This document shows positions 4,997 through 17,961 of a stretch of DNA of 22,930 bases, piece by piece. Position 1 is the stretch's first letter, and every line of letters starts with the position of its first letter. Source of the DNA: a virus. A model generated the notes under the pieces. That model was not told the origin of the DNA and did not search any database. It worked only from the letters and a program-made list of their open reading frames with translations. The stretch is from the IMG/VR virus record IMGVR_UViG_3300048904_000056, positions 1-22,930 of that record; one strand, given 5' to 3'. The position numbers and the translations under genes were made by a program.

Positions 4997-5812
4997 TTAC
5001 GATGCAGCAGCAACCGCAACAGTCGGGGCGCTGAATGCCTGTGCGCTACCGCTGGCATTCGACGCACTTACGCGCGCCTGAATGATCTTACCAAGCTGTG
5101 CCGATCCAAGGATCAACGTATTGGCAGTAGCACCGGGAATTGCAACACCACCGGCAAACCACTGGTAAGCGTAGCCAATGACAGCATCACCGGTAAACGT
5201 CCCGTTGCTCAAATTGAGCGTTTCGCCAACTTCCGCAGTGCCGGTAATCGCTGGCGCAACGGTATTGGTAGGGGCAACACCACCAGCGCCGGGATCAACA
5301 ACAACTTCCGGCTGATTGAGCGCAAGCGTAAAAACTTCAAGATCGAAATCTTCATTCTTACCCCCGGGACGGGTTGGGCCGGTGACAAGACCGCGATTAT
5401 AAATCACAGTGCCAATACCACCGGAAACAGCAGGATCATTGCGAACAATCTTGAACGCATAATTCAAGTTTGTCTTCGCAATCTGCCGCATGATGATCTG
5501 GCCGGGATCGGTAGGAATGCGAGCAAATTCCAGCGTCGGTGAACCGGCGTCGGTAATGCCTTTGGCCTTCTGTGTAACGATAGTGTCCCAAGTATCGTAA
5601 TTGAGAATGTTGGTCTTCGAACCGGTTTCCCCGAGATTGCCAAGGGATTTGACTTCAACCCATGTCAAAGCTTCGAAGTCAGCTTGTGCCAGATCGGATT
5701 GCTGCGGCGTCGAACAGACGAAAAGCTTCGAACCGGCATTCGTATTGGCGAACACCACAGGAAGTGCAAAGACGCTGCCCATAAGTGCAGCAACGAAGAT
5801 GGATTTTTTCAT
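4997..5812 (-). CDS. Major tail (tube) protein with signal-like leader and C-terminal Ig-like domain
   Basis: A 271-residue tail tube subunit. The tube domain covers roughly residues 23-170 (NTNAGSKLFVCST, then LEVFTLAL at its end). Residues 180-268 form an Ig-like domain (ITGTAEVGETLNL, YAYQWFAGGVAIPGAT, GKIIQARVSASNASGSA), as often found decorating phage tails. Residues 1-22 look like a bacterial signal peptide: MKKS, a hydrophobic core, then VVFA before NTNAG, which is where homologues would start with Met-Ala-Asn. I chose the ATG at 5812 because AAGGGG lies seven bases upstream; an ATG at 5839 has no such site. No other in-frame ATG near the tube domain has a ribosome site, so the leader should be translated. 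A terminator follows the gene. Confidence 0.85.
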   Translation of the reverse strand: MKKSIFVAALMGSVFALPVVFANTNAGSKLFVCSTPQQSDLAQADFEALTWVEVKSLGNLGETGSKTNILNYDTWDTIVTQKAKGITDAGSPTLEFARIPTDPGQIIMRQIAKTNLNYAFKIVRNDPAVSGGIGTVIYNRGLVTGPTRPGGKNEDFDLEVFTLALNQPEVVVDPGAGGVAPTNTVAPAITGTAEVGETLNLSNGTFTGDAVIGYAYQWFAGGVAIPGATANTLILGSAQLGKIIQARVSASNASGSAQAFSAPTVAVAAAS

Positions 5813-6821: not shown

Positions 6822-7919
6822 ATGAAAACATACACCGTTGATCAACTGAAGACCATACTTGGTCCACCTGATACATTCGTTCCTAGCAGCAACAATCATC
6901 GCTACTTGAGATTATGGGCACTCGCCATCGGTTTGCCCGATGTCAAAGTGTACGCAATGACGAACGTTGAACTAACAAACCTATACCATGAGCGCGGCGA
7001 CCAGTTCAACAACGGCGATCAAATTCAACGTATTGCATCTGAAATATTTGTTAAAATCGTTGAAACAGTCCAAAGTGTGCAATTCGATCAGCAAACATTG
7101 GCGGAAATTATTCGCGCTGAAATTTCACACATCTTACCGAAACGTTTGGAAGTCATTTCATCACAAGGATCAATAACAATCGAAGGCCCGCTTCATTATC
7201 AAACCGAAAAAGTGATAAAGATTGCAAGCCTGTCACACCCCATTATGCTTGTTGGCCCGGCAGGATGTGGAAAAACAACAATCGGTCAACATACAGCACA
7301 AGCATTGCAACTTCCCTTTTATATCACCAGCACCATCAACGACACACACGAACTGACAGGCTTTGTTGACGGCACCGGAAGATATCACAGAACACCATTC
7401 CGCGATGCTTACGAAAACGGCGGCGTTTGGGTTGCTGATGAAATCGACGCATGGGACGCCAGCGCATTGCTTGCCGCCAATAGCGCTTTGGCAAATGGCT
7501 ATAGTGTATTTCCAGACAACCCATTGCCCGTAACACGTCACCCAAGCTTCCGCATGATCGCGACAGCAAACACATTCGGTCACGGTGCGGATCGTGTATA
7601 TGTCGGGCGAAACGAATTAGACGCTGCAAGCCTTGATCGTTTTGCTACTATCAATGTTGATTACGATTTGAACCTTGAACAATTGTTTGCCAAAGGGAAT
7701 ATGCAGTGGCTTGAACATGTTTGGGCCGTTCGTAAAGAAGTGACGGAAAAGAAAATTCGACACGTCGTTTCATCGCGCGCAATCATCATGGGATCATCAG
7801 CACTCGCAATCGGTTTGAAATGGGATGACGTTGAAGAAACTTATCTGTTCAAAGGAATGAGTACGAAGGATCGGGAAAAGATCGAAATTGACGATCCAGA
7901 CGATAACGTTCCATTTTAG
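6822..7919 (+). CDS. CobS-like / MoxR-type AAA+ ATPase
   Basis: A 365-residue AAA+ ATPase. Walker A is GPAGCGKT (145-152), Walker B is VWVADEID (202-209), sensor 1 is the Asn at 250 in IATANTFG, and the arginine finger region is SLDRF (R273). The insert around AYENGGVW and the RVYVGRNELD segment are typical of CobS/MoxR ATPases. Residues 1-60 form an extra helical domain. CobS is a cobaltochelatase subunit working with CobT and CobN, but no CobN is visible here and phage CobS-like proteins need not act in cobalamin synthesis. A VWA/CobT-like partner lies three genes downstream, as MoxR-VWA pairs usually do. Residues before the ATG at 6822 are Cys-rich and overlap the divergent gene, so I exclude them. 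The ribosome site is poor. Confidence 0.85.
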   Translation: MKTYTVDQLKTILGPPDTFVPSSNNHRYLRLWALAIGLPDVKVYAMTNVELTNLYHERGDQFNNGDQIQRIASEIFVKIVETVQSVQFDQQTLAEIIRAEISHILPKRLEVISSQGSITIEGPLHYQTEKVIKIASLSHPIMLVGPAGCGKTTIGQHTAQALQLPFYITSTINDTHELTGFVDGTGRYHRTPFRDAYENGGVWVADEIDAWDASALLAANSALANGYSVFPDNPLPVTRHPSFRMIATANTFGHGADRVYVGRNELDAASLDRFATINVDYDLNLEQLFAKGNMQWLEHVWAVRKEVTEKKIRHVVSSRAIIMGSSALAIGLKWDDVEETYLFKGMSTKDREKIEIDDPDDNVPF

Positions 7920-7991: not shown

Positions 7992-8309
7992 ATGGGAAAA
8001 CGAGTAGGTTACGAATGGTGCGTTGAAGTTTACGAAAACAGCAACACCGATACCGCTGACATTATCGACCATACATTTGACGATTGTCTATCAAATCTTC
8101 CTTGGATTTTGCAAGCGAATGAACTTCACGTTTTAATTCGCACGACTGAAGACGGACATCGTTGTTGGGCATATGTTGACGAAAGTAAGATGCTACCAAA
8201 ATATTTTTCCATACCGGAAGCGGACGGCAAGCATCATGAAACTGCAATTCTGGTGCCCCAACGTTTTCATCGGGAAATCGCGCGCGTAGCTTGTGGATTT
8301 CAATCATGA
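7992..8309 (+). CDS. Conserved-looking phage protein of unknown function
   Basis: A 105-residue acidic protein; I do not recognise a family. It begins GYEWCVEVYEN followed by a TADIIDHTFDD segment, has ELHVLIRTTEDG and WAYVDESKMLPKYF, and ends VPQRFHREIARV. The Y-E-W-x-V-E start and the closing VP-x-R-x-H-x-E-hydrophobic element recur, from memory, in small phage proteins of unknown role. I chose ATG 7992 because GGAG sits eight bases upstream and the consensus promoter ends 28 bases before it. Upstream in-frame starts at 7935 (TTG) and 7947-7963 lie within the promoter itself. Its stop overlaps the next start (ATGA). Confidence 0.65.
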   Translation: MGKRVGYEWCVEVYENSNTDTADIIDHTFDDCLSNLPWILQANELHVLIRTTEDGHRCWAYVDESKMLPKYFSIPEADGKHHETAILVPQRFHREIARVACGFQS

Positions 8310-8734
8310 TTGAATGGACATACAGTGACGGCGGGCGCGAACGCGCGGGCTTCAAAGGTGAAACTGGCGATTGCGTAACACGCGCAATCGCTATCGCAAC
8401 ACGTAAGTCATATCGTGAAATTTATGACGACTTAAACCAACTTGCCAAACGCGAACGAACCGGCACAAAGAAAAGCGGTGTTTCGTCCGCACGCACCGGT
8501 GTTTATCGAACCACCTATCAGAAATATCTTTTGTCACTTGGATGGAAATGGAAACCAACAATGATGATCGGAAGCGGATGCAAGGTTCACTTGCGAACCG
8601 ACGAACTTCCGAAAGGTCGCATCATAGTTTCGTTGTCACGTCATTTAGCTTGCGTGATTGACGGTGTTCTATACGATACACATGATTGCAGCCGCGACGG
8701 CACCCGTTGCGTTTACGGGTACTATTACAAGTGA
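8306..8734 (+). CDS. Papain-like (C39-like) fold protein of unknown role
   Basis: A 142-residue protein. ETGDCVTRAIAIAT (Cys23 at the N-terminus of a helix), SLSRHLACVIDG (His113, Asp119) and YDTHDCSR (Asp124) give the Cys-His-Asp order of papain-like and C39-like peptidases. The pattern DGG-R...AG-F-KG-TGDC and the C-terminus RDGTRCVYGYY recur in small phage proteins, from memory, without known function. It overlaps both neighbours by four bases (ATGA at 8306, GTGA at 8731), so it is coupled to the unknown gene before it and the VWA gene after it. It could be an active peptidase or transferase or an inactive fold; nothing here shows its substrate. Confidence 0.65.
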   Translation: MIEWTYSDGGRERAGFKGETGDCVTRAIAIATRKSYREIYDDLNQLAKRERTGTKKSGVSSARTGVYRTTYQKYLLSLGWKWKPTMMIGSGCKVHLRTDELPKGRIIVSLSRHLACVIDGVLYDTHDCSRDGTRCVYGYYYK

Positions 8735-9906
8735 TCATTATTAGCGGCAGAACGTTTGACCACCGCGAACGCCTGAAGAAATTAGGCGCGCGGTGGGATG
8801 CCGACGACAAGACTTGGATGTTGGATTACGCGAACGATGCAGATATGCGCGAATTGCGTTTGATGCCCGGCGTTCAAATCAAAGAAAACAAACCGTCACC
8901 GCCAAAACCAAAACGGCTAGGAACACAAGTACCTGAAGAATTCATAGATCGCTTCTTTGGAAGCGATGAAAGAATAATTCACGGAACTGCAAAGCCTGAT
9001 ATTCACGGCGACGACAAGACTTATCTGAATTATTTTGCACCACAAAACCCAATCGCATATTTTGGTTTTTCCAGTCTGCCGCAACTTGTTCGATATGTTG
9101 AAAACATTCCTGACAAGATCGCACAAGAATGTGCAGATGGAAGAAACGGCGGTTGGGAAATCGGCACCTATGAAACAAGTTGGTCTGGAACAGAAAACAT
9201 GCATCGCGCGATTGATATTGCGCGCAACGGGTGGCCCAAGGGTGTTGATCTGGCATCTGACATCACTGCACACCTACTTGGACGCCACGCTAAACAACGT
9301 CGCCGGAAATATTCGTTGACCGGTGGTGCTGTGTCAGTCGGTCGGCTACTCGCTAACAATCCTGTTCACATGATATCACGACCGAAACAGCCACGATCAA
9401 AAGCAATCACATTGTTTGTTGATGCTGGAATGTCGTCTTCCATCAAGGCCGATCACGCAATTATCCGCACAGCAATGGTTGCTTCAGTGGTGGATATTTT
9501 GGAAATGAACGGCTATAGCTGCGAAGTCATTGCAACGTTTATTAGTGGATCGGCAACCGGCAAGCCGATCATGCAGATGGTAACAACGCTTAAATCAGCC
9601 GGTGAACCTCTTAATTTGAATGATCTGGTATTTGCACTTGGTCATCCATCATATCTTAGACGAATGTTGTTTGCTGTAGCTGCCACTAATGCACGACTTC
9701 GTTCATATTGGCGAACCATGGGAACACCGCAAGCCGTATTCACGAACGATCACCCGACAAAAACAAACGAACTATTCGTTGACAAAATCCATCATGAACT
9801 TAGACAACTTGTCGTTGGTGATACCGATATTGAAAAAGCTTTTTCAATATGGAAACTGACAGTTCGCGACAAACTGCCGATTACTCTAAACGAGGAACAA
9901 CCATGA
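8731..9906 (+). CDS. CobT/VWA-like protein with N-terminal DUF5710-type domain (DUF7192-like)
   Basis: A 391-residue protein. Residues 4-35 (SGRTFDHRERLKKLGARWDADDKTW) match the short DUF5710-type module with K-x-LGARWD...K-x-W. Residues 150-215 (ENMHRAIDIARNGWPKG, then GGAVSVGRLLANNPVHMI) and the core from residue 225 (AITLFVDAGMSSS, then SVVDILEMNGYSCEVIA) resemble a von Willebrand A fold. The metal site is degenerate: DxSxS becomes Asp231-Ala-Gly-Met-Ser235. From memory this fits the phage family DUF7192. It is the likely partner of the AAA+ ATPase. I chose GTG 8731 because it overlaps the previous stop as GTGA; the open frame upstream reads through the neighbouring gene. Confidence 0.7.
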   Translation: MIIISGRTFDHRERLKKLGARWDADDKTWMLDYANDADMRELRLMPGVQIKENKPSPPKPKRLGTQVPEEFIDRFFGSDERIIHGTAKPDIHGDDKTYLNYFAPQNPIAYFGFSSLPQLVRYVENIPDKIAQECADGRNGGWEIGTYETSWSGTENMHRAIDIARNGWPKGVDLASDITAHLLGRHAKQRRRKYSLTGGAVSVGRLLANNPVHMISRPKQPRSKAITLFVDAGMSSSIKADHAIIRTAMVASVVDILEMNGYSCEVIATFISGSATGKPIMQMVTTLKSAGEPLNLNDLVFALGHPSYLRRMLFAVAATNARLRSYWRTMGTPQAVFTNDHPTKTNELFVDKIHHELRQLVVGDTDIEKAFSIWKLTVRDKLPITLNEEQP

Positions 9907-10253
9907 AACTGCTAAGACGAATTATGGACGCGATTTCGGGCGAACCTGATTTGTACGCTCAAACCGATCTTACCAATCACCGTTTAGATATGGATTGGTG
10001 GATAGCTGCCCTTGGTGAAAACAAAAAAATGCCTCGCGTTGGTGATGTTATTATTAAAGTAACATCCTGTGGAATGGGAATGACTGTATTCCGCGATGAA
10101 CGTTTTCGCGTAATCGGGCTGGCGGACCGTCCGGGCGAAGTCCGAGCTATTTGGCGAACACCGGATAATGTGTGTGCCAGAACCGAAACACTTCACATCT
10201 TCAATATGCGACCGCATACTGAATTATATCGCACTTGGTTCTTGATTGATTAG
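9903..10253 (+). CDS. Unknown protein, last gene of the AAA+/VWA group
   Basis: A 116-residue protein with no family I recognise. Its ATG at 9903 overlaps the VWA stop (ATGA) and has GAGG six bases upstream. Visible elements are a basic N-terminal helix (KLLRRIMDAI), an aromatic stretch MDWWIAALGENKKMPRVGDVIIKV, then beta-rich segments TVFRDERFRVIGLADRPGEVRAIWRT, and an end rich in His/Met/Trp. The segment from about residue 45 to 95 reads like a small SH3-like beta barrel (R-V-G-D-x-I followed by strands), but this is only a guess. It ends tail to tail with the MuF-like gene, the stop codons overlapping. Confidence 0.6.
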   Translation: MKLLRRIMDAISGEPDLYAQTDLTNHRLDMDWWIAALGENKKMPRVGDVIIKVTSCGMGMTVFRDERFRVIGLADRPGEVRAIWRTPDNVCARTETLHIFNMRPHTELYRTWFLID

Positions 10254-11275
10254 TCAATATCCGCAAGCCAATCGACTTTGAAACGGGATTTGCAGCGGCA
10301 GTTGATTACTTCACCTGCCGCCGCTCCTAACGATACATCGCCCGGAAACATCAAACGTGATCCATCGGGGGCAATAAACGGTTCATCGATGTTGACGGTT
10401 TGACCTTCCATATCAGCATGATCATCGCGAACGCGATCATCCCCGGCTGTATCCCAAACCTTGCCGACATTCTTACTTGCTGTCGCTCCCATGTCGATTG
10501 CCTGTTTATAGGCTTCATATTCTGATCGATTGAGTGATTGAATTGTTTCCGTTCGCGCGACGGTTTCACCGCGAAGCTTCAAGAGATTGTCTTTATACCG
10601 ATTGATCAGCTTTGTGATTGTGCTTTGATCCAAATTTGTATTGGTATCAATTGCACGTTGAACGATACTGTCAAAGCGACGATCACGACGAACGCGATTG
10701 AAGTAGCGAGGATCAAGGTTCTGCAAGTCAAAAGTTGCGTTTCTTACCCACAATTCTTGCGGTTGGTTCAACCCGATAATCCCGCCCGTCCGATTGCCGG
10801 TTGCCGGATCAATATAACCAACGATGCTTAAGGCCGTATCGCGCGGATTATTTCCTGTTTGTAGCCCGATGGTCATCAGGTTGCGAACATTCACGCGAAT
10901 ATCTTCACCGATGTTTGTAATCAGTGTGCCTGATTGTTGTTTGATCCAATTTTCTGCGCGAACGTTCCGAACATCGAAACGAAAGATCGTTCGACCATCA
11001 GGCGTATTTAGTACCTTGGGAAACGTCGAACCTGTAGCGTCACCGCCTTGTTCAAAGATGTTTTCAATTGCCCGTGTGATCGGGCGCATTGCTGCATCTG
11101 AAAAACCAAGAGTGCGAAACGCGCGTTCGTAATCTTGTTGTTCGATAGCTTTGATCAAATCCTTCAGGATTACATTGTTGGTGATACCTTGAACAGCGAC
11201 AAAAAATGCATCGCGCAAGACCGGCTGAAGCTTTTCAATCAGCGCATCTAAAATCTGTCGCGATGACTTCGCCAT
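10250..11275 (-). CDS. MuF / SPP1 gp7-like minor head protein
   Basis: A 341-residue head morphogenesis protein. The C-terminal Mu F-like region is clear: GETVARTETIQSLNRSEYEA, then VWDTAGDDRVRDDHADMEGQTV, and INCRCKSRF at the end, the usual Cys-containing terminus of this family. The N-terminal 200 residues are helical. Such proteins bind the portal inside the head and may be ejected with DNA. Unusually, the gene lies about 5 kb from the portal gene, on the neck side. It overlaps its upstream neighbour by one base (TAATG) with AGGGG five bases before the ATG, and its stop overlaps that of the plus-strand gene at 9903-10253. Confidence 0.85.
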   Translation of the reverse strand: MAKSSRQILDALIEKLQPVLRDAFFVAVQGITNNVILKDLIKAIEQQDYERAFRTLGFSDAAMRPITRAIENIFEQGGDATGSTFPKVLNTPDGRTIFRFDVRNVRAENWIKQQSGTLITNIGEDIRVNVRNLMTIGLQTGNNPRDTALSIVGYIDPATGNRTGGIIGLNQPQELWVRNATFDLQNLDPRYFNRVRRDRRFDSIVQRAIDTNTNLDQSTITKLINRYKDNLLKLRGETVARTETIQSLNRSEYEAYKQAIDMGATASKNVGKVWDTAGDDRVRDDHADMEGQTVNIDEPFIAPDGSRLMFPGDVSLGAAAGEVINCRCKSRFKVDWLADID

Positions 11276-11749: not shown

Positions 11750-12148
11750 ATGGCAACCCCTGCCGCCACCACCAAAGCCAAGAACGCCCCGCGTGTTGCG
11801 CCTGTCATCACCCCGATCAGCGCCGCACTTACCATGCCGGAACGTGCGAGCAATCGCGGATCGAAGACCATCTATCCTTTCGAACAGCTTCAGGTCGGAC
11901 AGTCGTTTGGCGTGAAGAACAAGAAAGCCGAAAACATGACTTCGATTATCAGCAACCAGAACCGGAAGACGTATCCGGTGAAGGATGCGAGCGGCGCAAT
12001 CGTGATGAAGCCGATCAAAGACGCCGCTGGTGCCGTCATCGGGCAGTCTGCCGATCCTGAAACGTTTTCGAAGCGTTTCTTCGCGGTCGATGTGGACGCC
12101 AAGAAAGACCCTGACGGCGCGACCGTTCGTGTTTGGCGGGAACAGTAA
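11750..12148 (+). CDS. Isolated plus-strand gene of unknown function
   Basis: A 132-residue protein in a single-gene unit with its own leader, a strong ribosome site (GAGAGG) and a strong terminator. The first 40 residues are Ala/Pro/Thr-rich with several Lys and probably disordered. The folded part begins at YPFEQLQVGQSFGVKNKKAENM, continues with SIISNQNRKTYPV and closes with SKRFFAVDVDAKKDPDGATVRVWREQ. The pattern Y-P-F-x-x-hydrophobic-x-V-G-x-S-F, ending with a Phe-containing strand and V-W-R, recurs from memory in small phage proteins without known role. Codon choice is GC-rich like the coat gene, suggesting high expression. It is not clearly structural, because it lies antisense to the late block. 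Confidence 0.7.
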   Translation: MATPAATTKAKNAPRVAPVITPISAALTMPERASNRGSKTIYPFEQLQVGQSFGVKNKKAENMTSIISNQNRKTYPVKDASGAIVMKPIKDAAGAVIGQSADPETFSKRFFAVDVDAKKDPDGATVRVWREQ

Positions 12149-13712: not shown

Positions 13713-14939
13713 TTAGCCAAACAAACCTGCGATATGTTCCTGCTTCACAGCCTTGACGCCCCAAGCCTGTGTGACTTCCGCGCGGATTTTGCGATATCCG
13801 GCGTAAATCGCAACTTCGAACACCATTCCCGAGCGAGGATCAGTGATCAACATGCGGTCAATCGCTGCATCGCCTTCCTGCGGCAGTGCGGGCGCGCGCG
13901 CAACCAGATGCAAAGCATTCTGACTGAATGCGATGTTCGCAGTGCCCTTACCAACAACGGTGATCGCCGTTGCCGCCGCTGGAATTGCAACGCGCAATCC
14001 CGGTGCAGCGATGGTGATAGCACCACCGTTCGACACATCAGCGTCACCACTAACAACAAGATATTTGTTGGTATCACCAGCAAAGGTGATGACCGAACCG
14101 GCTGGAATGGTGCCGGTGCCTGCTGCTGCAAGCGTAATGGCGGTTGCACCCTTGGCATAACCAACGTTGTTGGTGGTCGAAGCCGCGCCCGTTCCTGCAA
14201 CGGTCTGCTGCACCTGTGCGCTTTCCTTGATGGAAATGCCCGACAGATTAAGCAGTTCGCCGTCGCGAAGCGTCATGGCCGTGCCAGCTTCCGAAACGCG
14301 CGTAAGGTTCTGCAAGGTGCGAAGCGATGCACCGGCAGACGTATCGACGATCAGCGAACGACCGCTTGCCGGTGCGCCGTTATCGTCAAGGATTTTGCGA
14401 ACCTGTGCGGCTTCGCCAACGTTGGTCGCAAACGGCGTCGTGCCCGGCGTACCATAGAAACGCGATGCGTTTGCAGCGGCTTCAACGGCAAGATCGAATT
14501 CGATTGCGTTGGTCAACGTGCGAAGTGCCTGTGCGAAGTTATCCGCCTGCACCGACAGATAGCCGGGGCCGGTGTTCAAACCGCGCTGTTCTTCACCGGT
14601 CCATCCAAATTCCACACCCTTTGACTTGGTGATGGTGATGGTCCCGTTGCCAACCGACGTATCGGAAGGTTCGGGAATTTGCATGGCCGGGGTAACGTCG
14701 AACAAGCCTTTCTGTGCGGTGATCGGATAAACGACCGACTGCCCGACTGCGGCACGTTCCGCGTTGGCGTTGCGGAAAACGGAAGGAATGAAGCCGACCA
14801 GTTCGCGCGAAACAACGTCCAAGCCTGCATACAGATCAGGGATCAGGCGAGTGAGCGAGTTTGCATAAACGTCCATGTGAACGACTGCGGGGGCCGCGAT
14901 GATCGCGGACGCCATCAGCAAGCGGGAATTAGCGCGCAT
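13713..14939 (-). CDS. Major capsid protein, P22 coat family, with signal-like leader
   Basis: A 408-residue coat protein of the P22 gene 5 family: SLTRLIPDLYAGLDVVSRELVGFIPSV, ITITKSKGVEFGWTGEEQRGL, RKILDDNGAPASGRSLIVDTS, and a middle insert rich in Ala/Gly/Thr (about residues 270-345). Family members normally begin Met-Ala-Asn-Ser-Leu-Thr; here the corresponding Ala-Asn-Ser is preceded by a 25-residue leader with a basic start (MRANSR), a hydrophobic core (LLMASAIIAAPAVV) and V-Y-A before Asn27. I chose ATG 14939 for its ribosome site AAAGGTG seven bases upstream; the ATG at codon 22 lacks one. No prohead protease gene is present, as expected for P22-type heads. The 5' leader holds three GGAT hairpins. 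Confidence 0.92.
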   Translation of the reverse strand: MRANSRLLMASAIIAAPAVVHMDVYANSLTRLIPDLYAGLDVVSRELVGFIPSVFRNANAERAAVGQSVVYPITAQKGLFDVTPAMQIPEPSDTSVGNGTITITKSKGVEFGWTGEEQRGLNTGPGYLSVQADNFAQALRTLTNAIEFDLAVEAAANASRFYGTPGTTPFATNVGEAAQVRKILDDNGAPASGRSLIVDTSAGASLRTLQNLTRVSEAGTAMTLRDGELLNLSGISIKESAQVQQTVAGTGAASTTNNVGYAKGATAITLAAAGTGTIPAGSVITFAGDTNKYLVVSGDADVSNGGAITIAAPGLRVAIPAAATAITVVGKGTANIAFSQNALHLVARAPALPQEGDAAIDRMLITDPRSGMVFEVAIYAGYRKIRAEVTQAWGVKAVKQEHIAGLFG

Positions 14940-14982
14940 GTTGCACCTTTCAATGAAAATGGGATTTCGGGGTTTGATCGCG

Positions 14983-15044
14983 CGGTCATCCAACCGTCTG
15001 CGATGAATTGGGCCATCCAGCCCGCGCGCCGTTCGTCATCCGAC
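14983..15044 (-). promoter_or_regulatory. Three GGAT(G)-loop hairpins in the coat gene leader
   Basis: On the minus strand: GTC-GGAT-GAC (15044-15035), GGGC-TGGATG-GCCC (15023-15010) and CGGT-TGGATG-ACCG (14996-14983), all upstream of the ribosome site. The first two repeat, in the same order and nearly the same spacing, the pair before the scaffold gene. GGA in a short hairpin loop is the known binding feature of CsrA/RsmA proteins. Confidence 0.55.
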
Positions 15045-15130
15045 TTGCGGCGATGTATTACGGCTTAAACGTGTAAGTTGATTTGCAATGGTCCGCAACA
15101 ATTTTTTTGAACTATAAACGTAAAACGTAA

Positions 15131-15167
15131 ACGGGTGGATGTGCCACAGCCCCGCACATCCACCCGT
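15131..15167 (-). terminator. Long hairpin between scaffold and coat genes, terminator-like
   Basis: ACGGGTGGATGTGC (15131-15144) and GCACATCCACCCGT (15154-15167) form a perfect 14-bp stem with a 9-base loop. On the minus strand it is followed by a T-rich but interrupted stretch (TTTACGTTTTACG), so it could be a leaky terminator or an RNA-stabilising 3' end for the scaffold message. Confidence 0.6.
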
Positions 15168-15202
15168 CCGATCAAACCGTTCCCGCGACAAAAGAACGGT
15201 GA

Positions 15203-16024
15203 TTAGTCAACCAAGTTAACTTCACCCTTCCGTGCCTGTGCGGAAATGTTTGACTGTTCATGCGGGGGAAGCTTGTCGAATTCCGCCCGACGAACAACGC
15301 GACCACCGCCGCGACCGCCGCCACCGCCGCCATTGCCCGAGCCGCTGTGATCGGGTGCCTTCAAGATCGTATCCTTATGCGGATATGCATCGACAATAAT
15401 TTCAAGTGCTTCGTCCAAGTTGGCAATTTCACCAACGCGCGTCTTGGAATACACCTTATTGCCATCAGCATGATAACCGACAAGCTTACCGTCTTCGATC
15501 TTGAAATTCTTGCCAAACGTCGCTTCAAACATTTCCGGTGGGACGGCAACGCGCGACTGAATAAATTTCGACGTTGCGAAAGCATGGGAACGTGTCATTC
15601 CCTGTACCTGTGTCGTCAGATCGCCAATCGCCTTGTCCTTTTCGGCAATCTGCCCCTGATATGTGCGGCCAATTTCGTCTTTGACCCTATCGACTTCGCC
15701 AGCGTCGATAAGTTTCTTTGCGTCAAGTTTGCCGACAGTATCGATTGCCTTGCGGGCTGCGGCTGGATCAATACCTTCGAAAGCCTTCAACGCGGTCTGT
15801 GCGGCTTCCTTTTCCACACGATGTTGACGTGCTTCACCATTCAAACGTGAAATGGTGCCACCTTCGACAGTCATTTCAGCGCCGTTCGCATCAACATAAA
15901 TCGGGTTGCCGTCCTTCAGTTCAATCTTGCCGTCTTTGTCCAACTTCCAACCGGCTTTGCCGGGATCGAAGGAAATTGGCAATGTGAAGATTGCGGCTGA
16001 AGCCATCAAAAGATTACGTTTCAT
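15203..16024 (-). CDS. Scaffolding protein, DUF6651-like, with signal-like leader
   Basis: A 273-residue scaffold next to the coat gene. The pattern fits DUF6651: KLDKDGKIELKDGNPIYVDANGAEM near the start, then ISRLNGEARQHRVEKEAAQTALKAFEG, a long charged helix, FGKNFKIEDGKLVGYHADGNKVYS, and NLDEALEIIVDAYPHKDTIL. A Gly-rich stretch (about 234-246) precedes a basic tail that probably binds coat. Before Trp26, where homologues would start with Met, lies a 25-residue leader with MKRN, the core LLMASAAIF and then SFDPG. I chose ATG 16024 for its ribosome site AAAGGA; no other usable start is near. The upstream frame to 16153 crosses the regulatory region and is excluded. Confidence 0.85.
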   Translation of the reverse strand: MKRNLLMASAAIFTLPISFDPGKAGWKLDKDGKIELKDGNPIYVDANGAEMTVEGGTISRLNGEARQHRVEKEAAQTALKAFEGIDPAAARKAIDTVGKLDAKKLIDAGEVDRVKDEIGRTYQGQIAEKDKAIGDLTTQVQGMTRSHAFATSKFIQSRVAVPPEMFEATFGKNFKIEDGKLVGYHADGNKVYSKTRVGEIANLDEALEIIVDAYPHKDTILKAPDHSGSGNGGGGGGRGGGRVVRRAEFDKLPPHEQSNISAQARKGEVNLVD

Positions 16025-16040
16025 TGTCGCTAGTCCTTTC

Positions 16041-16075
16041 GGGCCATCCTGCCCATTCTTTGCGTCATCCGACGC
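16041..16075 (-). promoter_or_regulatory. Two GGAT(G)-loop hairpins in the scaffold gene leader
   Basis: On the minus strand GCGTC-GGAT-GACGC (16075-16062), eight bases including an extra C-less gap later GGGC-AGGATG-GCCC (16054-16041), immediately followed by the ribosome site GAAAGGA. With a start of transcription near 16081, they would fill most of the 57-base leader. Confidence 0.55.
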
Positions 16076-16080
16076 GATCA

Positions 16081-16105
16081 CTTGACAATTATAACCCCGG
16101 TCAAG
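16081..16105 (-). promoter_or_regulatory. Perfect -10 box within an inverted repeat, before the scaffold gene
   Basis: TATAAT on the minus strand (16093-16088) lies between CTTGAC (16081-16086) and GTCAAG (16100-16105), a 6-bp inverted repeat spaced by 13 bases. No -35 box is found 17 bases upstream, so the repeat may bind a regulator: an activator, or a repressor covering the -10 region. It overlaps the stop of the 50-residue gene. Confidence 0.5.
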
Positions 16106-16253
16106 CGACGGGTTTTCGTGTGATATCTTCGAATACTTTAAGCACACGCTCATTCATAACGCGGTTCGCACCTTCAAGCTTAACAATACGTTCTTTCTGG
16201 TCGGAAAGATCACGGCGCATTTCTTCAAACTGCCGTCGTTCTTCACTGGTCAT
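16101..16253 (-). CDS. Small coiled-coil protein between portal and scaffold
   Basis: A 50-residue charged protein too short for most gene lists. It is almost wholly helical: EERRQFEEMRRDLSDQKERIVKLEGANRVMNERVLKVFEDITRK, with heptad-spaced hydrophobic residues. The ATG at 16253 begins four bases after the portal stop; longer frames to 16343 run inside the portal gene. No family is recognised. Its place between portal and scaffold suggests an assembly accessory. The ribosome site is only moderate (AGAAAAGAAA), so translation may rely on coupling to the portal gene. Confidence 0.6.
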   Translation of the reverse strand: MTSEERRQFEEMRRDLSDQKERIVKLEGANRVMNERVLKVFEDITRKPVA

Positions 16254-16257
16254 CGCG

Positions 16258-17961
16258 TTATTTCTTTTCTGGTTGTGCGGGTTGCGGTTTGGGTGCTGGT
16301 GTACCCGGTGTTTTCGGTTGAACACCACCAGCGCCGTCATCATCGGCAGTATCGCTATCGTCTGGTGTTTCTTTCAACAGTTCTTTTACATCGGCTTCAA
16401 TATCGAATTCCGGCATCAGAATATTGCGCCGCTTCAATTCTTTCAGGAATGCAACACGCGAAATATCGCGATTGGTTCGTGCTGAAACAAGCGTCTGTTG
16501 ATCAACACCCTGATCAGCGAAATCATCGTATTCGTCATAGATATCTAGCTGTGCTTTGAAGTCGGCAATGTTCAACCACTTCGCTGTAATCTCAAGTGCA
16601 ATTTCCAACGTCTTTTTCAAACGTTGCCCCCAAGCACCGACAGCCGTTTTCGATTTGCCCGTAGCAAATGCAGTGGTAATGACAGTGAGATTTCCCGACT
16701 GTGCGGTAAGAGGGACGCGCCCTAATTCCCGCAATTCCTCTATCGTCGCTTTTACATCGGCGGCAAGGAACGTCATCAATGCAGCATCAGGCGATACATA
16801 CGCCCAATGACCAACCTTTCCATCGCCGCTTGGTTCGCAATACAAAACGCGGTTTGGTCCCACACGTAATTTCAACGGTTTTCCATCCGGCCCCTTTTCC
16901 GGTTTGATACCGTTGGCGGCAAGCATCGGATATGCGGCCATGATCTTGGTAAAGTTCAATCCGCTTTCCTGCTTATAAAGCTGAATTTGCAGGTCTGCCG
17001 CATCGCGCATCGGCGGATACAGCTTGAATGTGCGGCCATCCCGGCGACCGGTAACAAATGGCACCAATGGAATAACGCCGATGGTAATCAATCCGCTATC
17101 GATCAGGATGTAGGTTTTTGAGCGACCATCAGCCGATATCTTTTCTTCGAACAATGCCCAATTGACAAGCCCGGTCTTCACATCCTTTTCAAACATGCGG
17201 ATGTAGTTCGGTTTTCCCGGTTCAAGAATACGTACCTTGATCAATTCTTCATTGCCGTTAACAACAGCGGTTGTTGCTTCAAGCACATTGCGTCCAAGAA
17301 CATGCGTCCAAAATGGTTTGATACCCGCGTTCGTAAGATCGGCTTGCGTTTTGATGACGCTGTTATCAACAATAGGATAATCGATAAATATCCAATCGAT
17401 TGCAGATGCAATGCCGTTGAAAAACGTTGTTGCGGCATATGTCGTCAGATTGTTGCCAGCACCATCAACATTTTCAACAAAGTCTTTGATTTGCTGCGGG
17501 ACTTGCGTATTTGCATCGGTGCCTGTCGTTTCGACAAACTTAATTTCTTCTTCGAACGGCTTTGATGCTAGAACTTCAACGATATCCCGAAAGATATTGG
17601 TAAATTCGCCGCATTCCAAACGATATTGATATTCGTCTGTTGTTTCATCTGGAAATTTCGGAAGATATTTTGTGCCACCAGCTTTGATCGCATCATAACC
17701 GGCAACAATATCATCGCTTGTATCCCAATAAGGGATATTGGCGTTCATGTCTGATGCGCGCGCGCCAAGATCAATATCGGTTGATGCCGATTGACCGGCT
17801 ACGGCTTGTGCAGCGTTCAACAATGATTGAATAAGACCAACGTTGACTGTTCCCGGCAATGCCGGTGGAAACGAGTTTGGCGCAATCGGCCCTGTGTCGA
17901 ATGACACAAATGGACGCACTGAAATTGCTGTTGTCGCCAACAATCTGCTATGAATATTCAT
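16258..17961 (-). CDS. Portal protein, DUF4055-like, with signal-like leader
   Basis: A 567-residue portal. The characteristic DUF4055 element is IPLVPFVTGRRDGRTFKLYPPMRDAADLQIQLYKQESGLN from residue 297, and near residue 90 lies AIKAGGTKYLPKFPDETTDEYQYRL, the typical start of the family domain. The C-terminus is a Pro/Gln/Lys-rich tail. The first 24 residues (MNIHSRLLATTAIS, then SFDTG) resemble the leaders of scaffold and coat, followed by a Pro-rich and polar stretch before the family domain. The ATG overlaps the terminase stop (ATGA) with GGGGG ten bases upstream, which supports the start. Confidence 0.88.
   Translation of the reverse strand: MNIHSRLLATTAISVRPFVSFDTGPIAPNSFPPALPGTVNVGLIQSLLNAAQAVAGQSASTDIDLGARASDMNANIPYWDTSDDIVAGYDAIKAGGTKYLPKFPDETTDEYQYRLECGEFTNIFRDIVEVLASKPFEEEIKFVETTGTDANTQVPQQIKDFVENVDGAGNNLTTYAATTFFNGIASAIDWIFIDYPIVDNSVIKTQADLTNAGIKPFWTHVLGRNVLEATTAVVNGNEELIKVRILEPGKPNYIRMFEKDVKTGLVNWALFEEKISADGRSKTYILIDSGLITIGVIPLVPFVTGRRDGRTFKLYPPMRDAADLQIQLYKQESGLNFTKIMAAYPMLAANGIKPEKGPDGKPLKLRVGPNRVLYCEPSGDGKVGHWAYVSPDAALMTFLAADVKATIEELRELGRVPLTAQSGNLTVITTAFATGKSKTAVGAWGQRLKKTLEIALEITAKWLNIADFKAQLDIYDEYDDFADQGVDQQTLVSARTNRDISRVAFLKELKRRNILMPEFDIEADVKELLKETPDDSDTADDDGAGGVQPKTPGTPAPKPQPAQPEKK

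Follow-up and report, generated by a model that had tools for sequence, protein, structure and literature searches.

The coat, scaffold, portal and major tail proteins encoded on a 22,930 nt stretch of viral DNA (IMG/VR record IMGVR_UViG_3300048904_000056, hereafter the window) all begin with short, similar N-terminal leaders. We interpret these as a modular, translated pro-sequence that is read by one trans-acting factor and probably cut beside a conserved aromatic residue, a reading that we regard as reasonably probable. An initial annotation, made from the sequence alone, had described such leaders on the coat (ATG 14939), scaffold (ATG 16024) and portal (ATG 17961) proteins and proposed a common tag on capsid parts. 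All three leaders were confirmed on the minus strand and the idea of a tag is supported. However, the tag is not restricted to the head, as it is also found on the major tail protein of the window, which had been overlooked, on DUF7303 proteins of some relatives and once on a protein of the single-strand-binding type.

The coat leader MRANSRLLMASAIIAAPAVVHMDVY comprises 25 codons (14865-14939, minus strand), is preceded by the Shine-Dalgarno (SD) sequence AAAGG and is followed by a body starting with ANSLT (13713-14864, minus strand), a P22-type major head protein of phrog_283 (E 1.3e-89, residues 26-408). The scaffold leader MKRNLLMASAAIFTLPISF (15968-16024, minus strand, 19 codons) precedes a body starting with DPGKAGWK (15203-15967, minus strand), which by its family matches is a scaffold-type protein (DUF6651, phrog_784/phrog_206), and the portal leader MNIHSRLLATTAISVRPFVSF (17899-17961, minus strand, 21 codons) precedes DTGPIAPN at the start of a body matching DUF4055 and phrog_145 (16258-17898, minus strand). 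The major tail protein of phrog_158 (E 2.2e-24), which has a C-terminal immunoglobulin-like part, starts with ANTNAGSK (4997-5749, minus strand) after a 21-codon leader MKKSIFVAALMGSVFALPVVF (5750-5812, minus strand, ATG 5812). Since the best family matches of coat, scaffold and portal start at residues 26, 27 and 68, respectively, past the leader codons, their first 25, 19 and 21 codons lie outside these protein families. Two runs of residues had been reported as shared between the window leaders. The LLMASA identity of coat and scaffold is indeed above chance (P ~5e-5, shuffles of both leaders), but the SFD run common to scaffold and portal is not significant by itself (P 0.19). LLMASA is not kept in relatives; the type of leader and its end are.

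To follow the leader beyond the window, alignments of coat, tail and scaffold were used to scan IMG/VR, and the coat was used to scan GTDB genomes, which yielded more than 100 loci. The curated table comprises 28 phages with 102 leaders; some of the counts given below refer to the first 25 phages with 93 leaders. The closest named phages are Rhizobium phages vB_RglS_P106B and RHph_X2_24 (genus Rigallicvirus), which carry leaders on coat, scaffold, portal and major tail protein alike. Together with the window and about 25 further uncultivated phages they make up the leader phages, and such relatives, whose alignment had been suggested as a check, show conservation of the leaders as a block. The leader is present throughout one phage clade, whereas distant homologues lack it: distant tail proteins without leader start with MAEAQTN or MADTN and distant coats with MANTLT, and no leader is present in the Rhizobium phages RHph_X3_2 and RHph_N28_2, which encode distant tail homologues. 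Across the 28 curated phages, four unrelated protein families have the type of leader and the junction in common, and counting all cases a similar N-terminal leader was found on four to six families. The major tail protein is tagged in 26 curated phages, and because the tail tube is built separately from the head, the leader is not solely a head device. The portal is without leader in seven phages or contigs (G002, G013, G014, G015, G016, L015 and L096). DUF7303 proteins are tagged in P106B, RHph_X2_24, G004 and others, the presence of the leader varying from phage to phage, and a Gp2.5-like single-strand-binding protein is tagged in phage G007 only, with its own ribosome site. The latter (L145:241-1206), which is likely a non-virion protein, starts with MRNLLTTTMLTAY followed by AAGG. 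In phage G011 the portal (MLNISKLPRVFENH, L157:6274-8412) and a large tail protein (MLRLSKTSKLPRVFEPVT, L158:1361-2872) have the N-terminal sequence SKLPRVFE in common. Nine further families with roles in structure or packaging have no leader in these phages; head-tail connectors, terminase, MuF and tape measure are untagged. A fixed leader rule was passed by 94 of the 102 curated leaders versus one of 227 control-family proteins with structural, packaging and replication functions; 20 of 1000 other predicted open reading frames of these phages passed the same rule.

The leaders of the curated set are 10-32 residues long (coat leaders 13-32), rich in Ala, Leu, Ser and Thr, and end in A-[FYH], with Gly, Val or Ser sometimes preceding the aromatic residue. 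In the first 25 phages, Lys or Arg is found within residues 2-8 of 92/93 leaders, and Asp and Glu together account for only 0.3% of the leader residues. After the junction follows Ala, Asp, Glu, Asn or Phe and then Asn, Ser, Thr or Pro, mostly Asn. The position of the junction becomes apparent from homologues without leader, in which the initiator Met occupies exactly the position of the aromatic residue. The coat of the leaderless phage G013 starts with MANTLT versus AYANTLT in leader phages, and its tail protein with MANTNAAS versus AFANTNAAS. Leaderless coat homologues start with MANTLT or MANTIT, which bears out the earlier statement that Met-Ala-Asn is the usual beginning of such coats.

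Several observations bear on whether the leaders are translated. Independent annotators of P106B and RHph_X2_24 placed all four gene starts at the leader ATG, and an SD match of at least 4 was obtained at 75 of the 93 leader starts, while none of the 93 junctions has a nearby in-frame start so equipped. The pooled dN/dS ratio (nonsynonymous to synonymous substitutions) for pairs of close leaders, which are few and overlapping, was 0.19 versus 0.28 for the adjoining body. Where the same amino acid is used across proteins, the codon agrees at a frequency of 0.39 within and 0.34 between phages. As codons barely agree beyond background, the similarity lies in the protein and not in recent DNA copies, and DNA copying or an mRNA element was rejected as its cause. 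These comparisons show, as far as sequence evidence reaches, that the leader is translated, as had been predicted, and that its amino acid sequence is under purifying selection.

The leaders of one phage resemble each other more than those of different phages. For permutation, leaders were shuffled among phages within each family, and identical residues were counted for pairs of families from the same phage; negative positions lie on the leader side of the junction and positive ones on the body side. Position -2 was identical in 115 of 140 same-phage pairs (null 83.6 +- 3.7) and position -4 in 38 of 140 (null 15.6), and both were significant in each of the two sub-clades. Identity was far above the permuted value from -7 to -2, weak at the aromatic residue itself and without excess from +1 to +4. 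Accordingly, cross-family identity over -8 to -1 was 0.303 within versus 0.205 between phages, and over +1 to +4 it was 0.246 versus 0.249. In G007, for instance, Gly precedes the aromatic residue in coat, scaffold, portal, tail and DUF7303 protein (5/6 leaders) and in G010 in 4/4 leaders, while the coat, scaffold and tail leaders of G027 and G028 all end in A-Y. Covariation confined to the leader side is what one co-evolving recognition factor would give, with a boundary at the aromatic residue. Although shared ancestry of the phages inflates the significance, it is precisely the substitution of one and the same residue across several genes within a lineage that forms the signal. Loss of the leader is also concerted. 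The coat-body tree nests leaderless G013 within the leader clade, as a member of a well-supported group (98/91) to which the window also belongs. G013 is without leader on coat, scaffold and tail protein all at once, and the related contigs L051-L054 agree. Judged from this placement, the leader has been lost from the three proteins together in G013.

Taken together, these results suggest the following scheme. The pro-sequence would be added to proteins that self-assemble, namely coat, scaffold and major tail protein, often the portal and sometimes the DUF7303 protein, and in each phage one trans-acting factor would read it on all tagged proteins, as the covariation on the leader side implies. 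This factor is most likely a peptidase that cuts beside the conserved aromatic residue, which would leave an N-terminus equal to that of leaderless homologues after Met removal. Until processing permits assembly, the leader may keep or route the subunits; that it serves to delay self-assembly is speculative. Removal by a peptidase, as had been proposed initially, is thus plausible, and cleavage beside the aromatic residue is likely.

A peptidase of this kind was sought among the phage genes. The GDC...H cysteine protein of phrog_3754 (8306-8734, plus strand), described as papain-like and proposed by the initial annotation to remove the leaders, was dropped as common processing enzyme after no match to it was obtained in any of 19 related records. 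S78 and S49 prohead proteases were not detected in the 16 records searched; the search for S77 prohead proteases matched no positive control and carries no information. In a gene-content comparison no phage gene tracked leader presence perfectly. Nearest to it were DUF7303 and phrog_5845, each present in 11 of 13 leader genomes. The latter is a 136-residue Cys-His protein (L009:22372-22782; IMG/VR loci L184-L207) whose gene adjoins the helicase gene in most leader phages. The two leader genomes in which it was missed are contigs from which neighbouring replication genes are absent as well; it is present in the 11 leader genomes that cover the replication locus and absent between the same neighbours in G013. 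Scanning with phrog_5845 revealed further records of the leader clade, and all four new ones with coat or tail genes were tagged. All of 22 sequences have C20 and H99, after which comes a conserved Asp or Asn followed by Pro. A first model without alignment was poor and its fold search uninformative, and a sequence search against solved structures gave nothing useful. With an AlphaFold model of high confidence (predicted local distance difference test, pLDDT, 95), the fold matches in the PDB included gyrase-type ATPases as well as the papain-fold peptidases staphopain, Josephin, AvrRpt2, PCAT1 and AvrPphB. Unrelated phages of Caulobacter, Mycobacterium and Ralstonia also encode structural relatives of phrog_5845. 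We consider phrog_5845 a better, if unproven, candidate than the protein at 8306. As an enzyme that processes the leader, this putative papain-fold protein would be the leading candidate and a host peptidase the alternative, both of which are speculative.

A number of points weigh against a pro-sequence read by one factor. The phages are not independent and the junctions were curated by hand, so that the permutation P is optimistic, and the clade contains just one leaderless lineage whose placement is secure. The portal and DUF7303 proteins are without leader in some phages, so that not every copy can depend on it. The PDB fold matches of phrog_5845 are weak (best E 0.011, none below 0.001), and the protein is also found in Caulobacter phage Sansa and in Lumi and ctUtU524, whose structural proteins are leaderless; as a specific marker of the leader in all phages it was rejected because these three encode a relative of it. 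Virion N-terminal or mass-spectrometry data, including proteomics of P106B, were not found in the literature searched.

Other explanations account for part of these data. Membrane-located assembly had been one of the uses first suggested for the leader, and Sec-type signal sequences, cleaved by the host signal peptidase or not, could direct the subunits of head and tail to the inner membrane, where assembly would be nucleated. The basic start, the lack of acidic residues, the hydrophobic core present in the majority of scaffold and tail leaders (median hydropathy over 8 residues 2.2) and tail leaders such as ...LPVVFA|N, which look like signal-peptidase sites, would fit, and a site after +1 satisfies the (-3,-1) rule in 18/26 tail and 21/28 coat leaders. 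The same site, however, fails the rule in all 27 scaffold and in 8/13 portal leaders (satisfied in 5/13), and placing it before the aromatic residue gives small residues at -3 and -1 only in 16/28 coat, 15/27 scaffold, 8/13 portal and 14/26 tail leaders. In addition, 8/13 portal and 6/28 coat leaders stay below 1.2 on the Kyte-Doolittle scale and have no hydrophobic core, and export would part coat, scaffold and portal from the DNA and from the terminase, which has no leader. As the scaffold breaks the signal-peptidase rule throughout and most portal leaders are not hydrophobic, classical Sec export becomes less likely, and we regard this explanation as improbable. The leader might instead be an uncleaved sorting tag that directs virion proteins, and the one single-strand-binding-type protein, to a common intracellular site of replication and assembly or to a shared chaperone. 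The different fates of the tagged proteins (head, tail, DUF7303 and, in a single case, a Gp2.5-like protein whose gene has an SD sequence of its own) speak for this, and covariation within a phage is compatible with any common receptor. The sharp end at an aromatic residue that replaces Met and the missing covariation from +1 onwards, by contrast, form the pattern of a cleavage boundary, and no such intracellular compartment is known to us in phages of this size. A tag that stays in place is accordingly unlikely in our estimate.

Two further explanations do without a function of the peptide. Among the late products, the tagged proteins probably reach the highest abundance, and their starts bear SD sequences, as would be expected if the first codons were selected for strong translation and the peptide were irrelevant. 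Yet selection acts on the amino acids and leaves the codons free to vary, other late structural genes manage without a leader, and the junction motif, the lack of acidic residues and the covariation within phages would go unexplained, so that such an expression device has very little to recommend it. Wrongly annotated starts, with the true starts further downstream and the leaders untranslated, could be invoked for the coat of the window, where an in-frame ATG lies four codons before the junction; given the placement of the SD matches and the purifying selection on the leader, this is hardly credible. A pro-sequence that is recognised by one factor and probably cleaved is the reading we prefer.

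It may be extended to a phage-wide code for processing or sorting, in which one enzyme or receptor, perhaps phrog_5845, would act on a removable leader of head, tail and some non-virion proteins and the subunits would stay inactive until they are unmasked together. This extension is tentative and we think it doubtful; if true, virion assembly would be timed by a route distinct from that of prohead proteases. The head and the tail of a phage consist of unrelated proteins and form in separate assembly pathways. A leader that is common to both and co-evolves within each phage thus points to a common control step that textbook models of assembly do not contain, and the literature searched, which mostly lay outside subscription journals, yielded no description of a leader shared in this way by head and tail proteins. 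If the leader is cleaved, a new class of virion processing enzyme would be involved, and if it targets, an assembly site that is so far unknown. For annotators it follows that these N-terminal extensions are real. As P106B and RHph_X2_24 are in culture and carry the leader, the question is testable there.

Among the other genes of the window, the MuF-type head morphogenesis protein (10250-11275, minus strand) served as control; it has no leader in 19/19 phages. The DUF7303 protein (11750-12148, plus strand) has no leader in the window, in contrast to P106B, RHph_X2_24 and several other relatives, and its gene, like those of its homologues, lies on the strand opposite to the structural genes. 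The minus-strand structural genes of the window are split by a plus-strand block encoding an AAA ATPase of phrog_249 and a DUF7192 protein (6822-7919 and 8731-9906), which is kept in several relatives. In the 5' leader of the scaffold gene, right before the ATG, a small palindrome with a GGAT loop is often present (CAGTTGGATGACTG, CTATTGGATGATAG, ATCGGATGAT), in P106B just after position 16849 of L002 (minus strand) and also in G004, G016, L014, L055 and L074. It might form a hairpin for translational control.

The closest comparison is with Rigallicvirus itself, which has the same structural genes and leaders on the same four proteins as the window, but its scaffold, portal and tail leaders are shorter and without Pro and its DUF7303 protein is tagged as well. 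Signal peptides cleaved by signal peptidase I share with the leaders the basic start, the core rich in Ala and Leu, small residues near the end and the absence of acidic residues, and differ in that scaffold and many portal leaders break the (-3,-1) rule and that the cargo must meet DNA in the cytoplasm. In bacteriocin export, a C39 peptidase of papain fold reads a family of leaders on different cargo. One of the weak fold matches to phrog_5845, PCAT1, contains such a C39 domain, a non-significant similarity of fold only; the leaders lack a double-glycine site and no ATP-binding cassette (ABC) transporter is known in leader phages. The HK97 delta domain, about 100 residues fused to the coat, is not matched, as the coat leaders are far shorter and the scaffold is a separate gene. 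In phage phiCbK the major capsid protein was found in a processed form whose cut end was not mapped (PMC3556154). In phage T4, targeting requires no more than the first 10 residues of IPIII, and a single phage protease, gp21, removes the propeptides (PMC9026906). As here, short and similar N-terminal propeptides are found on several unrelated proteins of one phage. The T4 sequences, however, function within the prohead and belong to its core and internal proteins, whereas here coat, scaffold, portal and tail tube are tagged by leaders that end in A-[FYH] and are nearly without Asp and Glu, in phages without a detected S78 or S49 protease. SPN3US and phiKZ-like phages process several head proteins, including the portal, which bear N-terminal propeptides with one motif for one phage protease (PMC10052503), but these propeptides are 20-254 residues long, are reported for head proteins and rely on another cleavage motif and protease. 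Both the T4 and the SPN3US system operate in the prohead and use dedicated serine proteases, and the substrates described for them do not include tail proteins (PMC9026906, PMC10052503), a confinement to the head that the tagged major tail proteins do not follow. By analogy, the capsid targeting sequences of T4 and the propeptides of SPN3US are nevertheless nearest in idea to the leader described here.

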